Positions 5,001 to 13,898 of a DNA stretch of 41,710 nucleotides are shown here, in pieces. The position numbers and the translations under genes are program-made. The DNA lies in assembly GCA_003566455.1 (NCBI GenBank), contig PXDF01000114.1, positions 1-41,710 on the forward strand. Direction: 5' to 3'. Under the pieces are notes generated by a model. It had not been told where the DNA came from. It searched no databases and was given only the letters and a program-made list of their open reading frames with translations. The first letter of the stretch is position 1. Every line of letters begins with the position of its first letter. The stretch is from Desulfonatronovibrio sp. (GTDB lineage Bacteria > Desulfobacterota > Desulfovibrionia > Desulfovibrionales > Desulfonatronovibrionaceae).

Positions 5001-5056
5001 GATTCACCGATTTACCGATTCACCGATTCACATATTCACCGGTTCACCGATTCAAC
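5001..5056. repeat. Tandem octanucleotide tract (7 units of GATTCACC type)
   Basis: There are seven consecutive 8-base units. The consensus is GATTCACC, and each unit differs by at most two bases. The polA stop codon (5052-5054) lies inside the last unit. The same octamer family forms a longer tract at 19703-19806. A short related stretch (ACTCACTGACTACTGA) occurs at about 4929-4945. Confidence 0.85.
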
Positions 5057-7598
5057 CATGCGCCTCAGCCCAGTTTTTACCCACTCCCCAGTCAACCACC
5101 AGGGGAACATCAAGTTCTTCCACATTGCTCATGACAGCTCCCAGCCGTCTGCCGGCCTCTTCAGCCCTGGATTTATCAACCTCCATCACCAGTTCGTCAT
5201 GAATCTGGAGAATAAGCAAGGCTCCCATTTTTTTCAGCTCATCATCCCGGTCAACCGCCAGCATGGCCTTTTTAATCACATCAGCGGCTGAACCCTGAAC
5301 CACTGTATTAATGGCCATTCTCGCGGCCTGCTGGGAGAGGTTTGAATTCCTGGAGTTAATTTCCGGCAAAAGCCTTCTGCGCCCGGCAATGGTAGTCACA
5401 TAGCCTTTTTCAGAGGCGGATTTTTCTATGTCATCATAAAACTGGCGAACCTTTTCCAGCTTGCTGAAATATTTTTCGATGAATTTTTTAGCCTCATCAA
5501 GGGAAATTGTCAGTTCCCGGCTCAGCTTCTGAGGCCCCATGCCGTAGAGCAAACCAAAATTAATGGTCTTGGCCTTTCTGCGCTCATCCGGGCTGACCAT
5601 TGAGATTTCCTTATCAAAAAGGAGTCCGGCCGTGCGTGTGTGAATATCCTCTCCCCTGGAAAAAGACTCCAGAAGGTTGGGATCCCGGGACATATGGGCC
5701 ATGATGCGCAGCTCAATCTGTGAGTAGTCCGCTGAAACCATAAGTTTCCCGGGCCCCGGCACGAAACAGGCACGCATCCTGGGCCCGAACTCCCCCCGGA
5801 TGGGGATATTCTGCAGATTGGGTTTGCTGCTGGACAATCTGCCCGTTGCCGTGGCCAATTGATTGAAAGTGGTGTGCAGGCGGCCGTCTGAACCCACCTT
5901 TTCCGGTAAAGGTTCAAGATAGGTGGACCTCAGTTTTTCAAGGGTCCTGAACTCAAGAATGAGACCGATGATTGGATGAGCCCCCTTCATGGACTCAAGC
6001 ACAATATTGGAAGTGGAAAAGGCCCCTTTAGGTGTCTTGCGCCTGGGTTTAAGTTCAAGCTCGTCAAAGAGAACAGCCGCGGTCTGCCGGGTGGATCTGA
6101 TATTAAACTCTTTACCGGCCAGGGCGAAAATTTCTGAGGTAAGTTCCTCCAGCCGCTCCTTGACCTTTTCCAGAAAAAGAGAAAAAGCATTCAGGTCTAT
6201 GCCGATTCCCGCTGCCTCCATCTTTAAAAGCACCGGAATCAGGGGCATCTCCAAATCCCGCATCAGGGTTTCAAGCCCGGCTGATTTAATTCTGTTTTCC
6301 AGGAGTCTTCCGATCTTAAGGGCTGCCAGACCCTTATTCTCCTCATTGGCATCAACTTCAGGAGAATACACCCTGAATATGTGTTCAAAATCATATTCCC
6401 TGGCTTCCGTGTTGAGCAGATAAGCTGCCAGGGAAATATCAAAAAAGTCCGGGGGGTCGGTACTGAGCCACGCTTTATGGGAGGCTGCCAGCTCTTTGAG
6501 TGAAAAAACATAAGTTTTCAGACAAGTAAGCATTTTTTGCAATTCTTCAGGTTCTGACTCCAACTGCCACTCTTCACCATTAATTCCCAGGATAAACCCT
6601 TTTTCAGTCTGGAAAAGGCCAGCCGCGTCAATGCCTTTAAGATCCGGAATCCCCTTCCTGGGTGATCCGGGCCCGCTGTTCAAAGAAAGAAGTGAGTGCC
6701 GGATCTCTTTCTTCACGCTTATCCCTGGAAGCTCCCGTAAAAGAGAATTGAATTCATACTTTTTTAAAAAATCAGCCAGGGACGGATTGTCAATGGGTTC
6801 AAGGGTAAGATCCCCTGCACTCAACTGTTGCCCGCAATCATACCTGAGTCTTGTGAGTTCACGGAAAATGAAAATATTATCCAGATGATCCCTGATTTTT
6901 TTCTGATCTTTGGCTGGAAGTTCATCAAACTCATCCCTGATCATCTCCAGACTGGGAAATTTTGTCATGATGATCCTGGCCGTTTTGGGCCCGATCCCCG
7001 GCACTCCGGGTATATTATCCGAACTGTCGCCCACCAGGGCCTGAAAATCAGGCCATTGCCCCGGTTCAAGGCCAGTGTCCCGCCTGAAATCATCAACAGT
7101 TATAAGCATATCCTTTTTAACACCCGGATCCCACATGAACACCTGGTCGTCCAGAAGTTGCTTCAGGTCCTTGTCCGAGGCCACAATAACTACAGCGTGA
7201 TCCTTCTTCAATGCCTGAGTCTGTCCGGCAATAAGGTCGTCCGCCTCAACCCCGTTGGACACGAATGTTTTGAAACCCATAAGCCTGACCCCTTCCAGGG
7301 CAGGATCAATCTGAACAGTCAGGTCTTCAGGCATTTTGGGCCGCTGGGCCTTGTATTCTTTATAGATTTCGTTTCTGAAGGTAGGCCCTTTTCCGTCAAT
7401 GAAGAAAGCGGCGTACCTGGGTTTTTCCTCCCTGATCAGTTTAAACAGGATCCGCAGGACAATGAAGATGGCATTGGTGGGAAACCCGTCAGATCTTTTC
7501 AGGTCAGGAAAAGCATAAAAGGCTCTATACATAAATGAACTGCCATCTATGAGGAATACCGGGTCACTCTTCAGAGCAAGCTTTTTTTTCAGCGTCAT
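5052..7598 (-). CDS. polA: DNA polymerase I
   Basis: This 848-residue family A polymerase serves in Okazaki fragment maturation and repair. The N-terminal third (about 1-290) is the 5'-3' flap exonuclease domain, with FLIDGSSFMYRAF, VEADDLIAG and GDSSDNIPGVPGIGPKTA. The C-terminal half carries polymerase motif A (SADYSQIELRIMAH), motif B (RRKAKTINFGLLYGMG) and motif C (QIHDELVMEV). The middle segment is short, and the DxE-type metal motif of a working 3'-5' proofreading domain is not apparent. This fits a length about 80 residues below the E. coli enzyme, so proofreading is probably absent. The ATG at 7598 overlaps the end of the upstream DHH gene by 35 bases, suggesting translational coupling. 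Confidence 0.97.
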   Translation of the reverse strand: MTLKKKLALKSDPVFLIDGSSFMYRAFYAFPDLKRSDGFPTNAIFIVLRILFKLIREEKPRYAAFFIDGKGPTFRNEIYKEYKAQRPKMPEDLTVQIDPALEGVRLMGFKTFVSNGVEADDLIAGQTQALKKDHAVVIVASDKDLKQLLDDQVFMWDPGVKKDMLITVDDFRRDTGLEPGQWPDFQALVGDSSDNIPGVPGIGPKTARIIMTKFPSLEMIRDEFDELPAKDQKKIRDHLDNIFIFRELTRLRYDCGQQLSAGDLTLEPIDNPSLADFLKKYEFNSLLRELPGISVKKEIRHSLLSLNSGPGSPRKGIPDLKGIDAAGLFQTEKGFILGINGEEWQLESEPEELQKMLTCLKTYVFSLKELAASHKAWLSTDPPDFFDISLAAYLLNTEAREYDFEHIFRVYSPEVDANEENKGLAALKIGRLLENRIKSAGLETLMRDLEMPLIPVLLKMEAAGIGIDLNAFSLFLEKVKERLEELTSEIFALAGKEFNIRSTRQTAAVLFDELELKPRRKTPKGAFSTSNIVLESMKGAHPIIGLILEFRTLEKLRSTYLEPLPEKVGSDGRLHTTFNQLATATGRLSSSKPNLQNIPIRGEFGPRMRACFVPGPGKLMVSADYSQIELRIMAHMSRDPNLLESFSRGEDIHTRTAGLLFDKEISMVSPDERRKAKTINFGLLYGMGPQKLSRELTISLDEAKKFIEKYFSKLEKVRQFYDDIEKSASEKGYVTTIAGRRRLLPEINSRNSNLSQQAARMAINTVVQGSAADVIKKAMLAVDRDDELKKMGALLILQIHDELVMEVDKSRAEEAGRRLGAVMSNVEELDVPLVVDWGVGKNWAEAHG

Positions 7599-8634
7599 TC
7601 TTTTCCTTTAAAGCCGTGACTCCGTTTCCGGCTGGCTTCTTGGACTTGATTCTTTTTTTAAGGTTTATTTCCGAAAGTCTCTGTAGGATAAACTGCTGGC
7701 AATGAGTATTGTCGATTTTATCAAGGGAAATTTCCGCTCGGGCCATCTGTTTATGCCCGCCCGCGGTTCCAATATTCCCGAACATCTGAGAAGCCATTTT
7801 TCCCATATCCTTTCTCAGTCCGTCTCCCCTGAATACCACCACCAGTGAATTCTGGTGAATACCGCTGACTATATCCCATGATATATTATGGATGCGCAGG
7901 AAAAAATCAGCCAGGATAACAAGTATGTCCGGAGACTCCACCTTGCCCATGAACACAGAGGCCCCGTTACCCATAAGCTTGACCTTGCGGAAGGCCAGGG
8001 AAAAATACTTGAGCCACTCCTTGTGGAACTCAGAGCGGACAATCTTCTGCAGCAGCAATGGATTGTAGAACTTGGTCAGGTATCTGAATGCCCTGATGTC
8101 CACATCGCAGAACTTGCGCTCAAAACTCTGGGTGTCGGTCTTTATCCCGTAAAGAAGTGCGGTTGCGAGAAGCTTGCCCGGCCGGATATTCAGGTTGTAA
8201 AGGTATTCGGTCAGAAGGGAGCTTGTGGCACCGTAATCCGGGTTTATTTCCATGTACAGAGCCTCAACCGGTTTTTCCTTTTTAAGAGGATGATGATCCA
8301 GAACAACTGAGAACTTGATTTTTTCAAATTGCGGATGATGATGGGGCTGAGAGTCAACAAGGGCAAACCTGTCATACTGGGCCGCCAGAAGAGGCGTCAG
8401 CTTCAGAATGGGAATGCGCAGAAGCTTGATCATGGCCAGGTTGTCAGGTCTGGAAATTTCATTGACATGAGCGATAGCCACTGTCTGGACCTTGCGGTAT
8501 AGAATGCGCTTCAACGCCATGGCTGAGGCCAGGGCATCCGGATCAGCATTGATAAGGATGAGCAGGCGCTCATCCTTATTGAAAAGCTTGATCATATCAT
8601 TGAGTTTTGAACCCAGATTTCTAAAATAAGCCAT
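7564..8634 (-). CDS. DHH/DHHA1 family phosphoesterase (NrnA-like)
   Basis: This 356-residue protein has the DHH phosphoesterase signatures in order: NADPDALASAMAL (motif I), DSQPHHHPQF (motif II), LDHHPLKK (motif III, the DHH itself), GATSSLLTEYL (motif IV), and near the C-terminus a DHHA1-type GTAGGHKQMARAE substrate loop. Related enzymes (NrnA) degrade short RNA oligonucleotides or pAp, using Mn2+. Its role here is inferred only. The C-terminal tail is Lys-rich. The stop codon overlaps the start region of polA, so the two are likely one transcript and may serve nucleic acid turnover and repair. Confidence 0.88.
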   Translation of the reverse strand: MAYFRNLGSKLNDMIKLFNKDERLLILINADPDALASAMALKRILYRKVQTVAIAHVNEISRPDNLAMIKLLRIPILKLTPLLAAQYDRFALVDSQPHHHPQFEKIKFSVVLDHHPLKKEKPVEALYMEINPDYGATSSLLTEYLYNLNIRPGKLLATALLYGIKTDTQSFERKFCDVDIRAFRYLTKFYNPLLLQKIVRSEFHKEWLKYFSLAFRKVKLMGNGASVFMGKVESPDILVILADFFLRIHNISWDIVSGIHQNSLVVVFRGDGLRKDMGKMASQMFGNIGTAGGHKQMARAEISLDKIDNTHCQQFILQRLSEINLKKRIKSKKPAGNGVTALKEKNDAEKKACSEE

Positions 8635-8734: not shown

Positions 8735-9472
8735 CTAAGAAAAATCCATCCCCCAGGAGTCAGCCATTTGAATCAAAATATCTCTGGAGTCAAGAAAATC
8801 CTGTAAGGTAAAAATCTCCAGAAGCACGCTGGTTCCATCCTTAACCCGGGATAAAATCAGTTGCAATGTTCTTTTACCGGACTCAGTCATTACAGTAAGG
8901 CCAACATGTCCGGTATGATCCTCTCTTCCGTAGACATGGACAAGTGCAGTCCTTTCCCAGACAATATCCTCCTCAAGTATGCTCATCTGATCATAGGCCA
9001 AGATATGTCCTATATCCAGGCATACTCCTAGCCCTTGCTCCTCAACAACTTCCCAAAGATTGGAAAGGTCATGGCCACTGACATTCTCCACAAGAAGCTG
9101 TCCTGGATCAAACCCGCTCTTTTGCCAGAGCAGGGAAAATTCCTCAAGATGTCCGGCGTCTGCAGGGGGATGAAGCACAAACTTATCCGGAGACAGAAAG
9201 CCGGTTTTTTGAACCAGGGCGGCTACCACCTGGAAAACATGGCCAGATCCATGGGTCCAGTTAAGGTCCAGAGGCAGATGGACATGATACTTCAGTCCCA
9301 ACCCGGCCAGACTATTGGGAATATCATTTCTAGTATAACAAAGACAAGCCCTGGTTTCAAAAAAGGTCAGGCCCACCTCGCTTACCAGGTTTTTCAAAAC
9401 CATGACGTTATCCTGAATAGTTCCAGGCACCACGGAAGAAGGACCAGCCAGGGTAAATGTCTTTTTGCTCAT
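8735..9472 (-). CDS. TIM-barrel protein of the sugar phosphate isomerase / AP endonuclease 2 type, possible cobamide-remodelling CbiR
   Basis: This 245-residue soluble protein carries scattered features of the xylose isomerase-like TIM barrel: early strand VGLTFFETRACL, YHVHLPLDL, FVLHPPADAG, LLVENVSGHDL, CLDIGHILAY, VHVYGRED and LLEIFTL. The acidic and His residues at strand ends are what the fold uses to bind divalent metal. The HVHLP and LHPP pattern resembles CbiR, a cobamide phosphodiesterase used to rebuild corrinoids, as I recall it. That assignment needs a profile search. No cobalamin riboswitch was seen upstream. The start is ATG at 9472. The flanking genes are nucleic-acid enzymes and give little help. 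Confidence 0.6.
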   Translation of the reverse strand: MSKKTFTLAGPSSVVPGTIQDNVMVLKNLVSEVGLTFFETRACLCYTRNDIPNSLAGLGLKYHVHLPLDLNWTHGSGHVFQVVAALVQKTGFLSPDKFVLHPPADAGHLEEFSLLWQKSGFDPGQLLVENVSGHDLSNLWEVVEEQGLGVCLDIGHILAYDQMSILEEDIVWERTALVHVYGREDHTGHVGLTVMTESGKRTLQLILSRVKDGTSVLLEIFTLQDFLDSRDILIQMADSWGMDFS

Positions 9473-9882: not shown

Positions 9883-12800
9883 CTAGACCAGCTTTAACTT
9901 TTTTTCCTTCCTTGCCTTCTGAATCTTGCCCCTGGTCGCCTGAACTCCATCTAAAGGCAACTCATTCAAAAACTTTGTCTTTTTCAGGTTTAGCTGGCGG
10001 CCGAAAATCTTTCTTGAACCGGCCAGGCTGAGGAACAGGCTTTTTTTAGCCCTGGTCAGAGAAACATAAAAAAGTCTTTTTTCTTCCTCAGGATCCCATC
10101 TTTTCCCCGCGGGATCGATCTGCCCCAGGAGAACGTCTGTTCCGGCAAAGGGAATAATCCCGTCCTCCAGGCACGGCAGAAAAACAGCTTCGAATTCCAG
10201 GCCTTTGGCCGCGTGCATGGTCATGATCATAACTTTTTGAGCTTTTATATCCACCTGGGCCAGGTCACTCTCCAGGCTGATATTGCTCATCAATCCGGCC
10301 CATCCTCCCAGCCTGTAATACTCCTGCTCCATGGTTGTAAAAGCCTTTCCTTTCCAGAAAATTCGATCAAATGGAGGCACATCCTCTAGATACGCGGCCA
10401 GGCTTTTGGGACCACCGGCCAGTACCTTTTCCGGGCAGTCAAACACCTTTTTATCGCCTGTTATTCCCATAACCTGGGCCACAGCCCTAAGGATAAGCTC
10501 CACCCTCGGGTCCTTGAAATATGGCTGATTTTCAGGAACGCTGACAGGAATTCCTCTGCGCTGGAGTTCTTTTTCCAGAAAAGGAATAAGTCCTTTGAAC
10601 CTGACTAAAATGGCGATATCCGACGGTGCCAGGAAAACTCTGCCCGAAGACATATCGCTCTGCCAGTGGGATGTTCCTCCAAGCATGGTCTTGATTTTTT
10701 CCCCGATCCAGTGACCTTCCTGCGATGAATTTACAGCCTGAAACAAATATATTCTCCCAGGTATATCATTCTGAGCTACAAGCCCGGGGTCGCCGGGAAA
10801 CAGGGCCTGGGAAAAATCAAGAATAGTCTGAGAAGAGCGGTAGTTCCTGGACAGGTTGATAAGTTTAAGATCAGGCCAGTACTGTGTCATGGTCTGTCTG
10901 ACATCTTTCAAGGCCCCCCTGAATCCATAGATGGATTGCCTGGGGTCTCCAATCCCGAAAAACCCCTGTCCGCTTTCAGGAAGAAGGTTTCGGATCAGGC
11001 TAAGCTGAAGCATGGACAAATCCTGAATCTCATCAACCAGGAGGTGGGTATACGGCCGGACAAACTGTCCGCTTTTGATCTCTTCCAGCCAGAATTCCAG
11101 CAGGTCGTTATAGTCAACCAGGTTCCAGTCCTGTTTCTGACGGGCGTAATGTTCTCCAGGCCCAGGTATAGATTCACGTTTTTCTCTGGCTAATGCCAGT
11201 TCCATCCAGGCATCCTTGAGGGCCGCGCCCTTGAGCTCAGGGTTGGCTATGGAGAATACCTTTCTGGCTTCATCATCCCCCAGAATCAGGGGTTGCTCAC
11301 CATAAATACTCTGCCAGTATTCATAGGCCAGGGCATGGATGGTTTCCGCCCGAGGCAGGGACTGTTCAGGACCCCGGGCCTCGGCCAGTCTTTCCTTGAG
11401 CTCCTGGGCAGCCTTCCGGGTAAAGGCAAGAATAAGGATATGCCTCGGATTAACGCCGCTATTTAGAAGTCCATCCACCTTGCCCATAAGGGTCTGGGTC
11501 TTGCCTGTACCTGGTCCGGCCAGGACCAGGAGCGGACCATGGTCATATTCAACGGCGAGTTCCTGCTCAGGATTCAGCCCCATATCCTTTTCCTTGACCA
11601 CTTCAGGACCTGAACCGATAAGCTTATCCGGGCCGATTCGTATATATTCGTCAATGTCCCCGGGAAAGGGTATGTCCACAATTCCCTTGCCCTTTTTGAA
11701 CTCATGGCGCTCTTTTTGTGAAAAAACACTGATTTTTCCAAACTGCCCGTCAAATCCAGGATCGCGGATAACCTCTCCAGCGCGCATGCGCTTGATTGCG
11801 GTTGCCAGAACCGAAGAGTACCTGGCCAGGTCCTCAATGGGCACGTTCTGCAGAATATTCATTTCCGAGCCAAAAAGCGAAACCACCTTATTATAAAAAG
11901 TCTGCACTTTCTTGGTCTTGGGGCCAACACCCACAAACTCGGCGATCATCTCTTTCAAAGGTATGATAGAAAAATAATCAGGCTGAAAAGAGGGTTTTAA
12001 TGCTGATTCACGGTCAGCCAGGGAAAACACCCTGTTCAACACGCCAACAGTAACTTCCCTGCCGCAAACCGGACAGCGCCCCTTGTTGGACCTGGTCTGC
12101 CTGGGATCCATAACTACCCCGCATTTTCTGTGTCCGTCCAAATGATATTTTCCCTCTTCAGGATAGAACTCAAGGGTTCCAAGGAATCTATGACCCAGAC
12201 CTTCCCGGCGCAGGGCCCTGTAAATACCTTCATAGCTCATCTCACCCTGAAAAATATTGACCTCGCGGCCCAGGTTTTCTGCTGAATGGGCATCGGAATT
12301 GGACACCAGGGAAAACCGGTCCAGCTTGCTCCACATCCAGTTCATTTCAGGATCAGAGGACAAACCTGTTTCCAGGGCGAAAATATGGGATGACAAGTCC
12401 TTGAAACATTCTTCCAGGCTGTCAAAACCTGACTTGGAGCCAAACAGGGAAAACCACGGGGTCCAGATATGGGCCGGGATTACATAGGCAAAAGGATCAA
12501 TCTCAAGGACCATTTCCAGAAGGCTTCTTGAGTCAAGTCCCAGGATGGGTCGTCCGTCAGACTCAAGGTTGCCTGTCCGGGCCAGTTTCTGGTTGAACTT
12601 TCTGGCCTGATCAAAGCCGGGCATAAACACCAGATTATGAATCTTGCGGACTTTGCCTCCCTGTTTGTAGATGGAGCTGATTTCCGAGGAAAGGACAAAC
12701 CTTGTTCTGGGTTTTATTTCATGTCCGAATCCAGGCACTTTGGAGCTTAAATCCTGGTCATCCTTGAGATATAAAAGCCCGTCCTGTCCCTGGTACAGAT

Positions 12801-12966
12801 GACGATCCAGCATATCCATCCATCCAGGGTGGGTGAAGTCTCCAGTGCCCACCACGCTTATGCCCTTGACATGCGCCCACGCGGCAAGGCTGAGCGGGTC
12901 AAGGTCCCTGCTGGTGGCCCTTGAAAAACTGGAGTGAATATGCAGATCTGCCAGAAAGATATCCAT
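9883..12966 (-). CDS. EndoQ-like PHP nuclease fused to UvrD/Rep-family helicase
   Basis: This 1027-residue fusion has two parts. Residues 1-about 420 resemble endonuclease Q: a PHP metal site (H9, H11 in LHIHS; D43 in GTGDFTHPG; E95; H166 in PAHIWTPW; NSDAH at 223-227) followed by a Cys-rich zinc-like element (C282, C298, C301). Residues 463-1010 are a superfamily 1A helicase: Walker A GPGTGKT (484-490), AFTRKAAQELKERL, DEIQD (645-649), GDPRQSIYGFRG (673-684), LSRNYRSS, MTMHAAKGLEFE and YVSLTRAKKSL. EndoQ nicks DNA 5' of deaminated bases. UvrD helicases unwind from such nicks, so a deamination-repair machine is a reasonable inference. The start is ATG at 12966, one base after the stop of the upstream MogA-like gene. 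Confidence 0.9.
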   Translation of the reverse strand: MDIFLADLHIHSSFSRATSRDLDPLSLAAWAHVKGISVVGTGDFTHPGWMDMLDRHLYQGQDGLLYLKDDQDLSSKVPGFGHEIKPRTRFVLSSEISSIYKQGGKVRKIHNLVFMPGFDQARKFNQKLARTGNLESDGRPILGLDSRSLLEMVLEIDPFAYVIPAHIWTPWFSLFGSKSGFDSLEECFKDLSSHIFALETGLSSDPEMNWMWSKLDRFSLVSNSDAHSAENLGREVNIFQGEMSYEGIYRALRREGLGHRFLGTLEFYPEEGKYHLDGHRKCGVVMDPRQTRSNKGRCPVCGREVTVGVLNRVFSLADRESALKPSFQPDYFSIIPLKEMIAEFVGVGPKTKKVQTFYNKVVSLFGSEMNILQNVPIEDLARYSSVLATAIKRMRAGEVIRDPGFDGQFGKISVFSQKERHEFKKGKGIVDIPFPGDIDEYIRIGPDKLIGSGPEVVKEKDMGLNPEQELAVEYDHGPLLVLAGPGTGKTQTLMGKVDGLLNSGVNPRHILILAFTRKAAQELKERLAEARGPEQSLPRAETIHALAYEYWQSIYGEQPLILGDDEARKVFSIANPELKGAALKDAWMELALAREKRESIPGPGEHYARQKQDWNLVDYNDLLEFWLEEIKSGQFVRPYTHLLVDEIQDLSMLQLSLIRNLLPESGQGFFGIGDPRQSIYGFRGALKDVRQTMTQYWPDLKLINLSRNYRSSQTILDFSQALFPGDPGLVAQNDIPGRIYLFQAVNSSQEGHWIGEKIKTMLGGTSHWQSDMSSGRVFLAPSDIAILVRFKGLIPFLEKELQRRGIPVSVPENQPYFKDPRVELILRAVAQVMGITGDKKVFDCPEKVLAGGPKSLAAYLEDVPPFDRIFWKGKAFTTMEQEYYRLGGWAGLMSNISLESDLAQVDIKAQKVMIMTMHAAKGLEFEAVFLPCLEDGIIPFAGTDVLLGQIDPAGKRWDPEEEKRLFYVSLTRAKKSLFLSLAGSRKIFGRQLNLKKTKFLNELPLDGVQATRGKIQKARKEKKLKLV

Positions 12967-12967
12967 T

Positions 12968-13744
12968 TCAGACCCCTGCGGCGCAGTCAGCCTTGTCGCC
13001 CTGCAGCTTTTTTAAGGCGTGCTCCAGAGCGGGAAGGACAACCCCCAGATTCTCCCTGACCCCCTTTGGACTGCCCGGAAGAGTAAGTAAAATGCTCTGA
13101 CCCAGAGTTCCGGCTGCAGCCCTGGAAATCATGGCATGAGGAGTCTTGGTCAGAGAATAATTGAGCATGCCCTGTTCAAAGCCGGGTATGCGCTTGTCAA
13201 TTATATCCAGGGCCACTTCAGGAGTTATGTCCCTGGGGCCCAGTCCGGTGCCTCCCGTGGTAATAATCAGATCAAAACCAGCAGTCAGGGACAGGTGTAT
13301 CAGCAGAGATTTCAAGAGACCGTAATCATCAGGAATAATAAAGCCCCTGAAAAGGCTCAGCTCAAGAGCAGACCCGGTGATTTCCTCAATAAGAGGGCCA
13401 CTCTTATCGTGTCTCTGACCCTTTGAACCCTTGTCACTGAGGGTGATCCAGGCCAGTGAAAAGCCATGACGCATAAAGGTCAAATCAAGACTCTGTTCCA
13501 TGGAAAAATCATCCAGGGCCTTGAGCTTGAGAAAAATCCCCCCCCTGCCCCTGGCATCAGTCATCCAGATTTTGTCCGTCACCTGGAATTTTTGTTCAAC
13601 CCGGGACAGGTATGTTCCAGCTCTGAGTTCCATAATGGTCTCGTAACCGGATGAGTAAAATATATCCTTTCCCTGAAGGCTGTCCGGACCAACAATATAT
13701 TCATTCCCTGTGGAAAAATTTTTTTTGCCTCTGATTCTGATCAT
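12968..13744 (-). CDS. MogA/MoaB-type molybdopterin protein with N-terminal extension
   Basis: This 258-residue protein starts at ATG 13744. A TTG at 13753 is also possible, but AGGG lies only about one base before it and about 12 before the ATG. Residues from about 90 on match the MoCF-binding (MogA/MoaB) domain: SDKGSKGQRHDKSGP, IIPDDYGLLK, LIITTGGTGLGPRDITPE, and LTLPGSPKGVRENL. These proteins adenylylate molybdopterin before metal insertion. Formate dehydrogenases and similar enzymes of sulfate reducers need this cofactor or its tungsten form. The first about 85 residues are a separate small domain that may be a MOSC-like module, which I cannot confirm. It is one base from the EndoQ-UvrD gene, probably co-transcribed. 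Confidence 0.82.
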   Translation of the reverse strand: MIRIRGKKNFSTGNEYIVGPDSLQGKDIFYSSGYETIMELRAGTYLSRVEQKFQVTDKIWMTDARGRGGIFLKLKALDDFSMEQSLDLTFMRHGFSLAWITLSDKGSKGQRHDKSGPLIEEITGSALELSLFRGFIIPDDYGLLKSLLIHLSLTAGFDLIITTGGTGLGPRDITPEVALDIIDKRIPGFEQGMLNYSLTKTPHAMISRAAAGTLGQSILLTLPGSPKGVRENLGVVLPALEHALKKLQGDKADCAAGV

Positions 13745-13898
13745 TGATGACAAGCCCTGATACTACAGATTGTTTGAAAAAAACGCTTATCCCTGCACCA
13801 GGCCACACACTGGCCGTCAGCACAATTGAACAATTTCCAGTGGAGGCTTCGGGGTTCTGACATTTATACTCTGACCTGTGAGATCTGTCATCCGTCTT

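Follow-up and report, generated by a model that had tools for sequence, protein, structure and literature searches.

Excision by UvrABC-UvrD-PolA and by MutL-UvrD proceeds through a nick, then 3'-5' unwinding and then resynthesis, and UvrD-type helicases translocate 3' to 5'. The nuclease EndoQ makes a comparable first cut. According to the available part of PMC4357722, it nicks DNA 5' of the lesion and leaves a 3'-OH and a 5'-phosphate. The available part of PMC8307549 reports that cleavage needs residues E76, H84 and H139, that T and A are excluded by H139, G169 and S171, and that AP sites and some oxidised pyrimidines are also cut. Archaeal EndoQ binds PCNA, and bacterial EndoQ homologues carry clamp-binding consensus sequences at their C terminus, as described in the accessible part of PMC4858679, in which the word 'helicase' does not occur. 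As far as the accessible part of PMC4357722 goes, the route from the EndoQ nick to finished repair has only been modelled so far: strand-displacing synthesis by a polymerase with Fen1 is foreseen, with removal by a helicase, once EndoQ and EndoV have both cut, as the alternative.

We found no description of an EndoQ-helicase fusion, or of the activity of a fused form, in the open EndoQ literature, a survey with subscription papers mostly outside its scope. None is present in the available parts of PMC4357722, PMC6202378, PMC8307549, PMC11354406, PMC3820547, PMC4858679 and PMC12448304. PMC4357722 does mention a Desulfovibrio homologue in the part available, and its domain figure may show a longer protein.

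A preliminary description of a 41,710-nucleotide stretch of Desulfonatronovibrio sp. DNA (contig PXDF01000114.1; this whole stretch is called the window hereafter) had proposed such a fusion between an EndoQ-like nuclease and a UvrD helicase. We establish here that the fusion is real and that it is more general than that description could tell. It probably represents a single-polypeptide excision-repair enzyme, in which an EndoQ-type nick would be followed by helicase lifting of the lesion flap, with PolA and a ligase finishing the repair. The chemistry follows that of the known enzyme; what we have not found described is the link with a dedicated helicase, seen across many phyla and in a class where UDG and EndoV are mostly missing.

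The fusion gene

Analysis of the window's open reading frames places the whole protein in one minus-strand frame with an ATG start, and the plus-strand frame of the same interval has stops throughout. As the single frame matches both PfuEndoQ by phmmer and the Pfam UvrD-helicase and UvrD_C models, the proposed fusion is borne out. Its features are as follows.

9883..12966, minus strand: EndoQ-UvrD fusion gene, 1027 aa (open reading frame, Pfam, phmmer, predicted structure)
11698..12963, minus strand: EndoQ-like nuclease half, aa 2-423, with PHP, zinc-type and C-terminal regions (match to PfuEndoQ 5zb8, Z 47.4, and residues)
12064..12132, minus strand: zinc-type element H279-x2-C282 ... C298-x2-C301 (alignment)
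11587..11679, minus strand: disordered linker, aa 430-460 (pLDDT < 50)
9925..11598, minus strand: UvrD-type SF1A helicase half, aa 457-1014 (Pfam, alignment, structure comparison)
9886..9903, minus strand: C-terminal tail KKLKLV, degenerate, at the site of the clamp-type QLxLF motif of relatives (alignment of tails)

An AlphaFold2 model was computed from the window protein aligned to 53 fused relatives. It has a mean pLDDT of 83.8, with disorder at residues 430-460 and from 1017 to the end, and low confidence in the 2B region and the tail. The pTM is 0.56, and how the model positions the halves towards each other was neither trusted nor used.

The EndoQ-like half

PfuEndoQ (5zb8) matches residues 6-414 of the fusion by phmmer with an E-value of 1.8e-56, at an identity of only about one third. 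In comparisons with solved structures, for which Foldseek was also used, residues 2-423 of the predicted model superpose on 5zb8 with a Z of 47.4 over 386 aligned residues (rmsd 2.4). The similarity thus spans the whole nuclease half, not the PHP domain alone.

The PHP metal ligands and the SDAH motif are present in the fusion protein. Across 41 fused and 40 non-fused frames aligned together, the equivalents of PfuEndoQ D6, H8, H10, E76, H84 and H139 are conserved in every row; those of E167, G169, S171, D193 and H195 are conserved in every row that reaches them, that is, all but one fused row (L050) cut after H139. The metal residues are therefore intact, as had been claimed, and a PHP pocket lacking metal ligands, named at the outset as the observation that would speak against a nuclease, was looked for and every ligand was found in place. 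The zinc-like Cys element, also described as intact, is so only in part. Three of the four Cys of the EndoQ element (CPxCG) are kept, and the first is replaced by His, giving an H-C3 site instead of C4. This His, a plausible ligand judging from the sequence, occurs in 40 of the 41 fused rows (the remaining one being the cut row) and in 39 of the 40 non-fused ones.

The NCBIfam equivalog TIGR00375 scores 187 bits on the fusion, below its cut-off of 326.6, which was reached in none of the 297 genomes of the phylum sample. We therefore call this half 'EndoQ-like' and do not file it under TIGR00375. Compared with the described enzymes (PfuEndoQ, TkoEndoQ, MacEndoQ and Bacillus pumilus EndoQ), it shares the fold over the whole length and all the active-site and pocket residues checked; most fused relatives also have a C-terminal clamp-type motif, comparable to the PIP box of archaeal EndoQ. 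It differs by its fusion to a helicase, its H-C3 site, its score below the TIGR00375 cut-off and the degenerate clamp motif of the window protein.

These features suggest that the EndoQ-like half would cleave 5' of dU, dI and AP sites. Alternatively, it might have changed its substrate, for example to oxidised bases or AP sites only, with the helicase serving their long-patch repair. The low identity with PfuEndoQ, the exchange of a zinc ligand from Cys to His in the bacterial branch and the cutting of AP sites and some oxidised pyrimidines by EndoQ itself (available part of PMC8307549) would be compatible with such a shift, but G169, S171 and H139, the pocket residues to which the exclusion of T and A is ascribed, are retained, and we hold a changed substrate to be very unlikely.

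The helicase half

The Pfam models UvrD-helicase and UvrD_C match the second half of the protein with 137 and 117 bits (cut-offs 23 and 25.6). Residues 463-1012 of the predicted model are closest to Rep (1uaa, Z 34.6), with PcrA and UvrD entries at 33.4 and less. Walker A, DExQ, RNYRS, the motif-V region and the motif-VI Arg are all intact, and the Walker Lys, DExQ Glu, RNYRS Arg, motif-V region His and motif-VI Arg are kept in 92 of 92 fused rows (20 from the class, 72 others), in line with the earlier statement that the SF1A motifs are complete. By family membership, this half is expected to unwind DNA with 3'-5' polarity at the expense of ATP.

It is nevertheless not a canonical UvrD, PcrA or Rep. 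Fold (Z 33-35) and motifs are shared, whereas the fusion helicase sits on its own branch, has shorter 1B/2B stretches, lacks the canonical C-terminal tail and is tethered to a nuclease. The NCBIfam equivalog cut-offs for PcrA, UvrD and Rep (911.2, 1144.45 and 951.45 bits) are not reached by the fusion, which scores 206, 178 and 206 bits. In a tree of 102 helicases, which included 8 of the 20 class rows and left out fragments, 96 fused, adjacent or free helicases are set apart from six canonical UvrD-like ones with a support of 97. The window protein has 157 residues in the 1B stretch and 208 in the 2B stretch, where six canonical UvrD-like helicases have 180-192 and 252-276. A shortened 2B as a trait of all fusions was considered and rejected: its median is 209 in the 20 class rows and 246 (range 124-307) in the 72 other fused rows.

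Distribution of fused, paired and separate forms

Within the window's class, 197 of 199 genomes gave a match to the EndoQ part; the exceptions, G193 and G150, are drafts of 94% and 96% completeness. Among the matches listed, the class frames are mostly about 1000 aa or longer, and 19 of the 20 class loci examined encode the fusion, the twentieth (L053) being cut by a contig end. In the phylum sample, sub-cut-off TIGR00375 matches occur in 194 of 297 genomes, in frames mostly near 400-480 or near 900-1190 aa; all 20 long-frame loci examined, and L143 in addition, contain a UvrD-type helicase. A scan of named genomes, in which the best 80 of at least 587 relatives were analysed, yielded 60 fused loci, 5 with adjacent genes, 11 with EndoQ alone and 4 cut by contig ends. 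As to the taxonomic range, which the preliminary description proposed to survey, the fused loci among these best 80 of at least 587 fall under 14 phylum labels, as taken from record titles, with several 'Deltaproteobacteria' counted as Myxococcota. Isolate genomes with the fusion include those of Desulfonema magnum, Saccharopolyspora hirsuta and Actinoallomurus soli.

In the five adjacent loci (L199, L204, L212, L214 and L223, among the same best 80 of at least 587), the helicase gene lies directly downstream of the EndoQ gene on the same strand. EndoQ followed by a separate helicase gene was also found in the phylum loci L137 (3 bp apart), L139 and L124; L124, with a stop between the halves, and L190, with two overlapping frames, may be artefacts. 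In L212 (6001-9721, Peregrinibacteria), a longer helicase frame of 865 aa overlaps the EndoQ gene. Six changes of the fused or free state are required among the 96 non-canonical helicases of the helicase tree, and ten changes of the fused or alone label in the EndoQ tree, where the contig-cut L053 was labelled alone, which indicates several gains or losses of the fusion within one helicase group.

Among the matches listed, free helicases of 500-610 aa occur in 12 of 25 genomes with EndoQ alone and in 1 of 25 genomes without EndoQ, where the short frame starts at a contig end; this comparison is biased, as the query came from an EndoQ genome and loci were taken by score. Seven loci (L149, L151, L152, L154, L159, L160 and L162) encode free UvrD-like helicases of about 500-590 aa with Q..LF-type tails, unlinked to EndoQ in genomes that nonetheless bear it.

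The pairing of a UvrD-like helicase with a nuclease also recalls the Gabija system GajAB. An anti-phage role of that kind would have the nuclease attack modified phage DNA, for example uracil- or hypoxanthine-bearing, with assistance from the helicase. PADLOC, run on three proteins, returned GajB- and DRT-type helicase matches on the fusion alone, the best model being GajB with 191 bits over the helicase half only, and no GajA-type partner was found among the 8 window proteins scanned. The Gabija nuclease belongs to another family than EndoQ; here, the nuclease is EndoQ-like, on a single chain with the helicase, chromosomal and near-universal in the class (197/199), with conserved housekeeping neighbours. 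A suggested antiviral role for Bacillus EndoQ is repeated in the available part of PMC8307549, yet the near-universal presence and conserved neighbours, together with the absence of phage matches to the EndoQ half and of any plasmid record covering 80% of the fusion, make an anti-phage nuclease-helicase most unlikely in our view. A mobile or phage origin of the gene was likewise rejected, the plasmid matches listed being to the helicase only.

The C-terminal clamp-type motif

We searched for the pattern Q[LMQ]x[LMI][FLIMY] within the last 20 residues, leaving L143 and L091, both cut by contig ends, and also L053 out of the counts. Such a tail is present in 49 of 53 fused proteins from the scan of the best 80 of at least 587 relatives, in 13 of 19 from the phylum and in 9 of 20 from the class, compared with 0 of 311 and 2 of 585 control ORFs from the same loci. 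Among EndoQ-alone proteins, 16 of 39 and 5 of 16 carry such a tail, or 26 of 39 and 12 of 16 with a looser pattern. At split EndoQ/helicase loci it is often found on both proteins, and the canonical UvrD tails examined are without it. A loose clamp tail is present on helicases in 6 of 13 resolved EndoQ-alone cases and in 0 of 15 EndoQ-absent ones, two loci having been left out; this comparison has the same bias as that of the short free helicases above. The fused relatives may accordingly be clamp-binding proteins, to judge from their tails.

The window protein itself has no QL[SD]LF-type beta-clamp motif; it ends in KKLKLV, and KPAW, RSLF, NKLF and PRLF tails occur in its family. This degeneration counts against clamp tethering in this species. 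It also bears on a rival reading, in which the two halves serve one cellular process without acting on the same lesion. The helicase would then be a general SF1 translocase, associated with the clamp or the fork, that carries EndoQ along DNA to lesions at replication forks and has no role in nick unwinding. The clamp-type tails on both split halves (for example L199, L214, L223, L137 and L139), the binding of archaeal EndoQ to PCNA (accessible part of PMC4858679) and the existence of other free helicases of the group unlinked to EndoQ all agree with delivery. However, the window protein's family has lost the clamp motif and retains both catalytic halves, and we consider a mere delivery function rather unlikely.

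Other repair genes

Of 60 class genomes, 9 have UDG (PF03167, a model that matches 13 of 14 control genomes) and 51, among them that of the window, lack it; EndoV was found in none of the 60, again including the window genome. From the EndoQ, UDG and EndoV families, that genome (96.5% complete) yielded no initiator other than the fusion. Since UDG is present in 264 of 297 genomes of the phylum sample, its absence is a trait of the class. EndoQ, found in 194 of the same 297 genomes, coexists with UDG elsewhere in the phylum, and we rejected the idea that it is a general UDG substitute. ExoIII was detected in 31 of 31 class genomes and EndoIV above cut-off in 6 of 31. The available part of PMC4357722 tells of nicking at uracil by Mth212, an ExoIII from a different organism, and ExoIII could share the uracil/hypoxanthine task in the window genome.

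It seems to us an even bet that EndoQ and a dedicated UvrD-like helicase, whether fused, paired or unlinked, form a widespread bacterial alternative-excision repair, usually on the beta clamp, and that uracil and hypoxanthine repair in the window's class is initiated mainly by this system. The recurrent pairing across phyla points to a little-studied repair route. If the proposal is true, a glycosylase-free route of uracil repair would be added to many bacterial phyla, and a class mostly without UDG and EndoV offers a clean setting for a test by removal of a single gene.

Conserved neighbours of the fusion

Downstream of the fusion lie the following genes.

8735..9472, minus strand: CbiR, cobamide remodelling phosphodiesterase (over the NCBIfam cut-off)
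7564..8634, minus strand: DHH-family phosphoesterase, conserved class neighbour (Pfam and class loci)
5052..7598, minus strand: DNA polymerase I with 5'-3' exonuclease domains, conserved class neighbour (Pfam/NCBIfam)

The order fusion, CbiR, DHH, PolA, aminotransferase recurs in the class. Among the 19 usable class loci (L053 was not usable), a same-strand downstream DHH gene is present in 15 and PolA in 12; no such cluster was seen around fusions in the phylum loci outside the class. To call the fusion a 'self-contained' repair protein, as had been done, is too strong, since finishing the repair also requires a polymerase, a flap nuclease and a ligase. The DHH gene overlaps polA and is conserved beside it across the class. 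Its product weakly resembles Mn pyrophosphatase and DHH phosphodiesterases, with a best E of 0.00029, and a role in clearing away short repair oligonucleotides is no more than conjecture. CbiR, being over its cut-off, has a TIM-barrel likeness to AP endonucleases that should not be taken as a sign of repair.

Proposed mechanism

We propose that the EndoQ-like half would recognise uracil, hypoxanthine or an abasic site and cut 5' of it, which would yield a 3'-OH and a 5' end carrying the lesion. The UvrD-type helicase joined to this half, travelling 3' to 5' on the intact strand, would be driven into the lesion-bearing 5' side and so raise it as a flap. PolA, encoded in the same cluster, would then extend the 3'-OH and trim the flap with its 5'-nuclease, and a ligase would seal the strand. 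Most relatives would stay attached to the beta sliding clamp through their C-terminal clamp-type motif, much as archaeal EndoQ is held on PCNA by its PIP box; in the window genome's family this motif has decayed. Such a scheme would work like UvrABC-UvrD-PolA and MutL-UvrD repair, with a nick, 3'-5' unwinding and resynthesis, except that nick and unwinding reside on one polypeptide and the expected lesions are deaminated bases. In terms of the two models outlined in the available part of PMC4357722, the fusion would fit the helicase step and the missing EndoV a single cut.

This scheme is based on the predicted fold, the active-site residues, the recurrent fusion, the split and co-occurring helicases, the enrichment of the tail motif and the absence of UDG and EndoV model matches; from these we infer substrate, polarity, order of steps, clamp binding and the activity of the fusion. 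The domain identification and the 'nick and unwind' idea of the preliminary description are well supported: sequence and predicted structure agree with them, as do the recurrence of the fusion, the split neighbours and the co-occurrence, with the activity itself expected by analogy. Counted against an excision-repair enzyme are the sub-cut-off TIGR00375 score, the protein's own degenerate tail, the coexistence with UDG elsewhere in the phylum, the ExoIII of all 31 class genomes and the lack of a PolA/DHH cluster around the fusions examined outside the class. The natural fusion points to a helicase as the likely next factor after the EndoQ nick.

The adjacent MogA-like gene

One further gene precedes the fusion.

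12968..13753, minus strand: MogA-like gene (MoCF_biosynth), one base upstream of the fusion (Pfam/NCBIfam)

The gap of a single base noted earlier is correct, the MogA-like gene ending at 12968 and the start codon of the fusion lying at 12966. The remark that this adjacency has no obvious reason carries little information, as relatives have intervening genes or gaps. A functional link was rejected: genes or gaps intervene in the 20 class loci, and no MogA match adjoins the fusions in 60 phylum loci outside the class. The adjacency is therefore taken to be chance context or simple co-transcription. In the MogA-like protein, the MoCF domain is preceded by some 95 N-terminal residues that no Pfam model matches.
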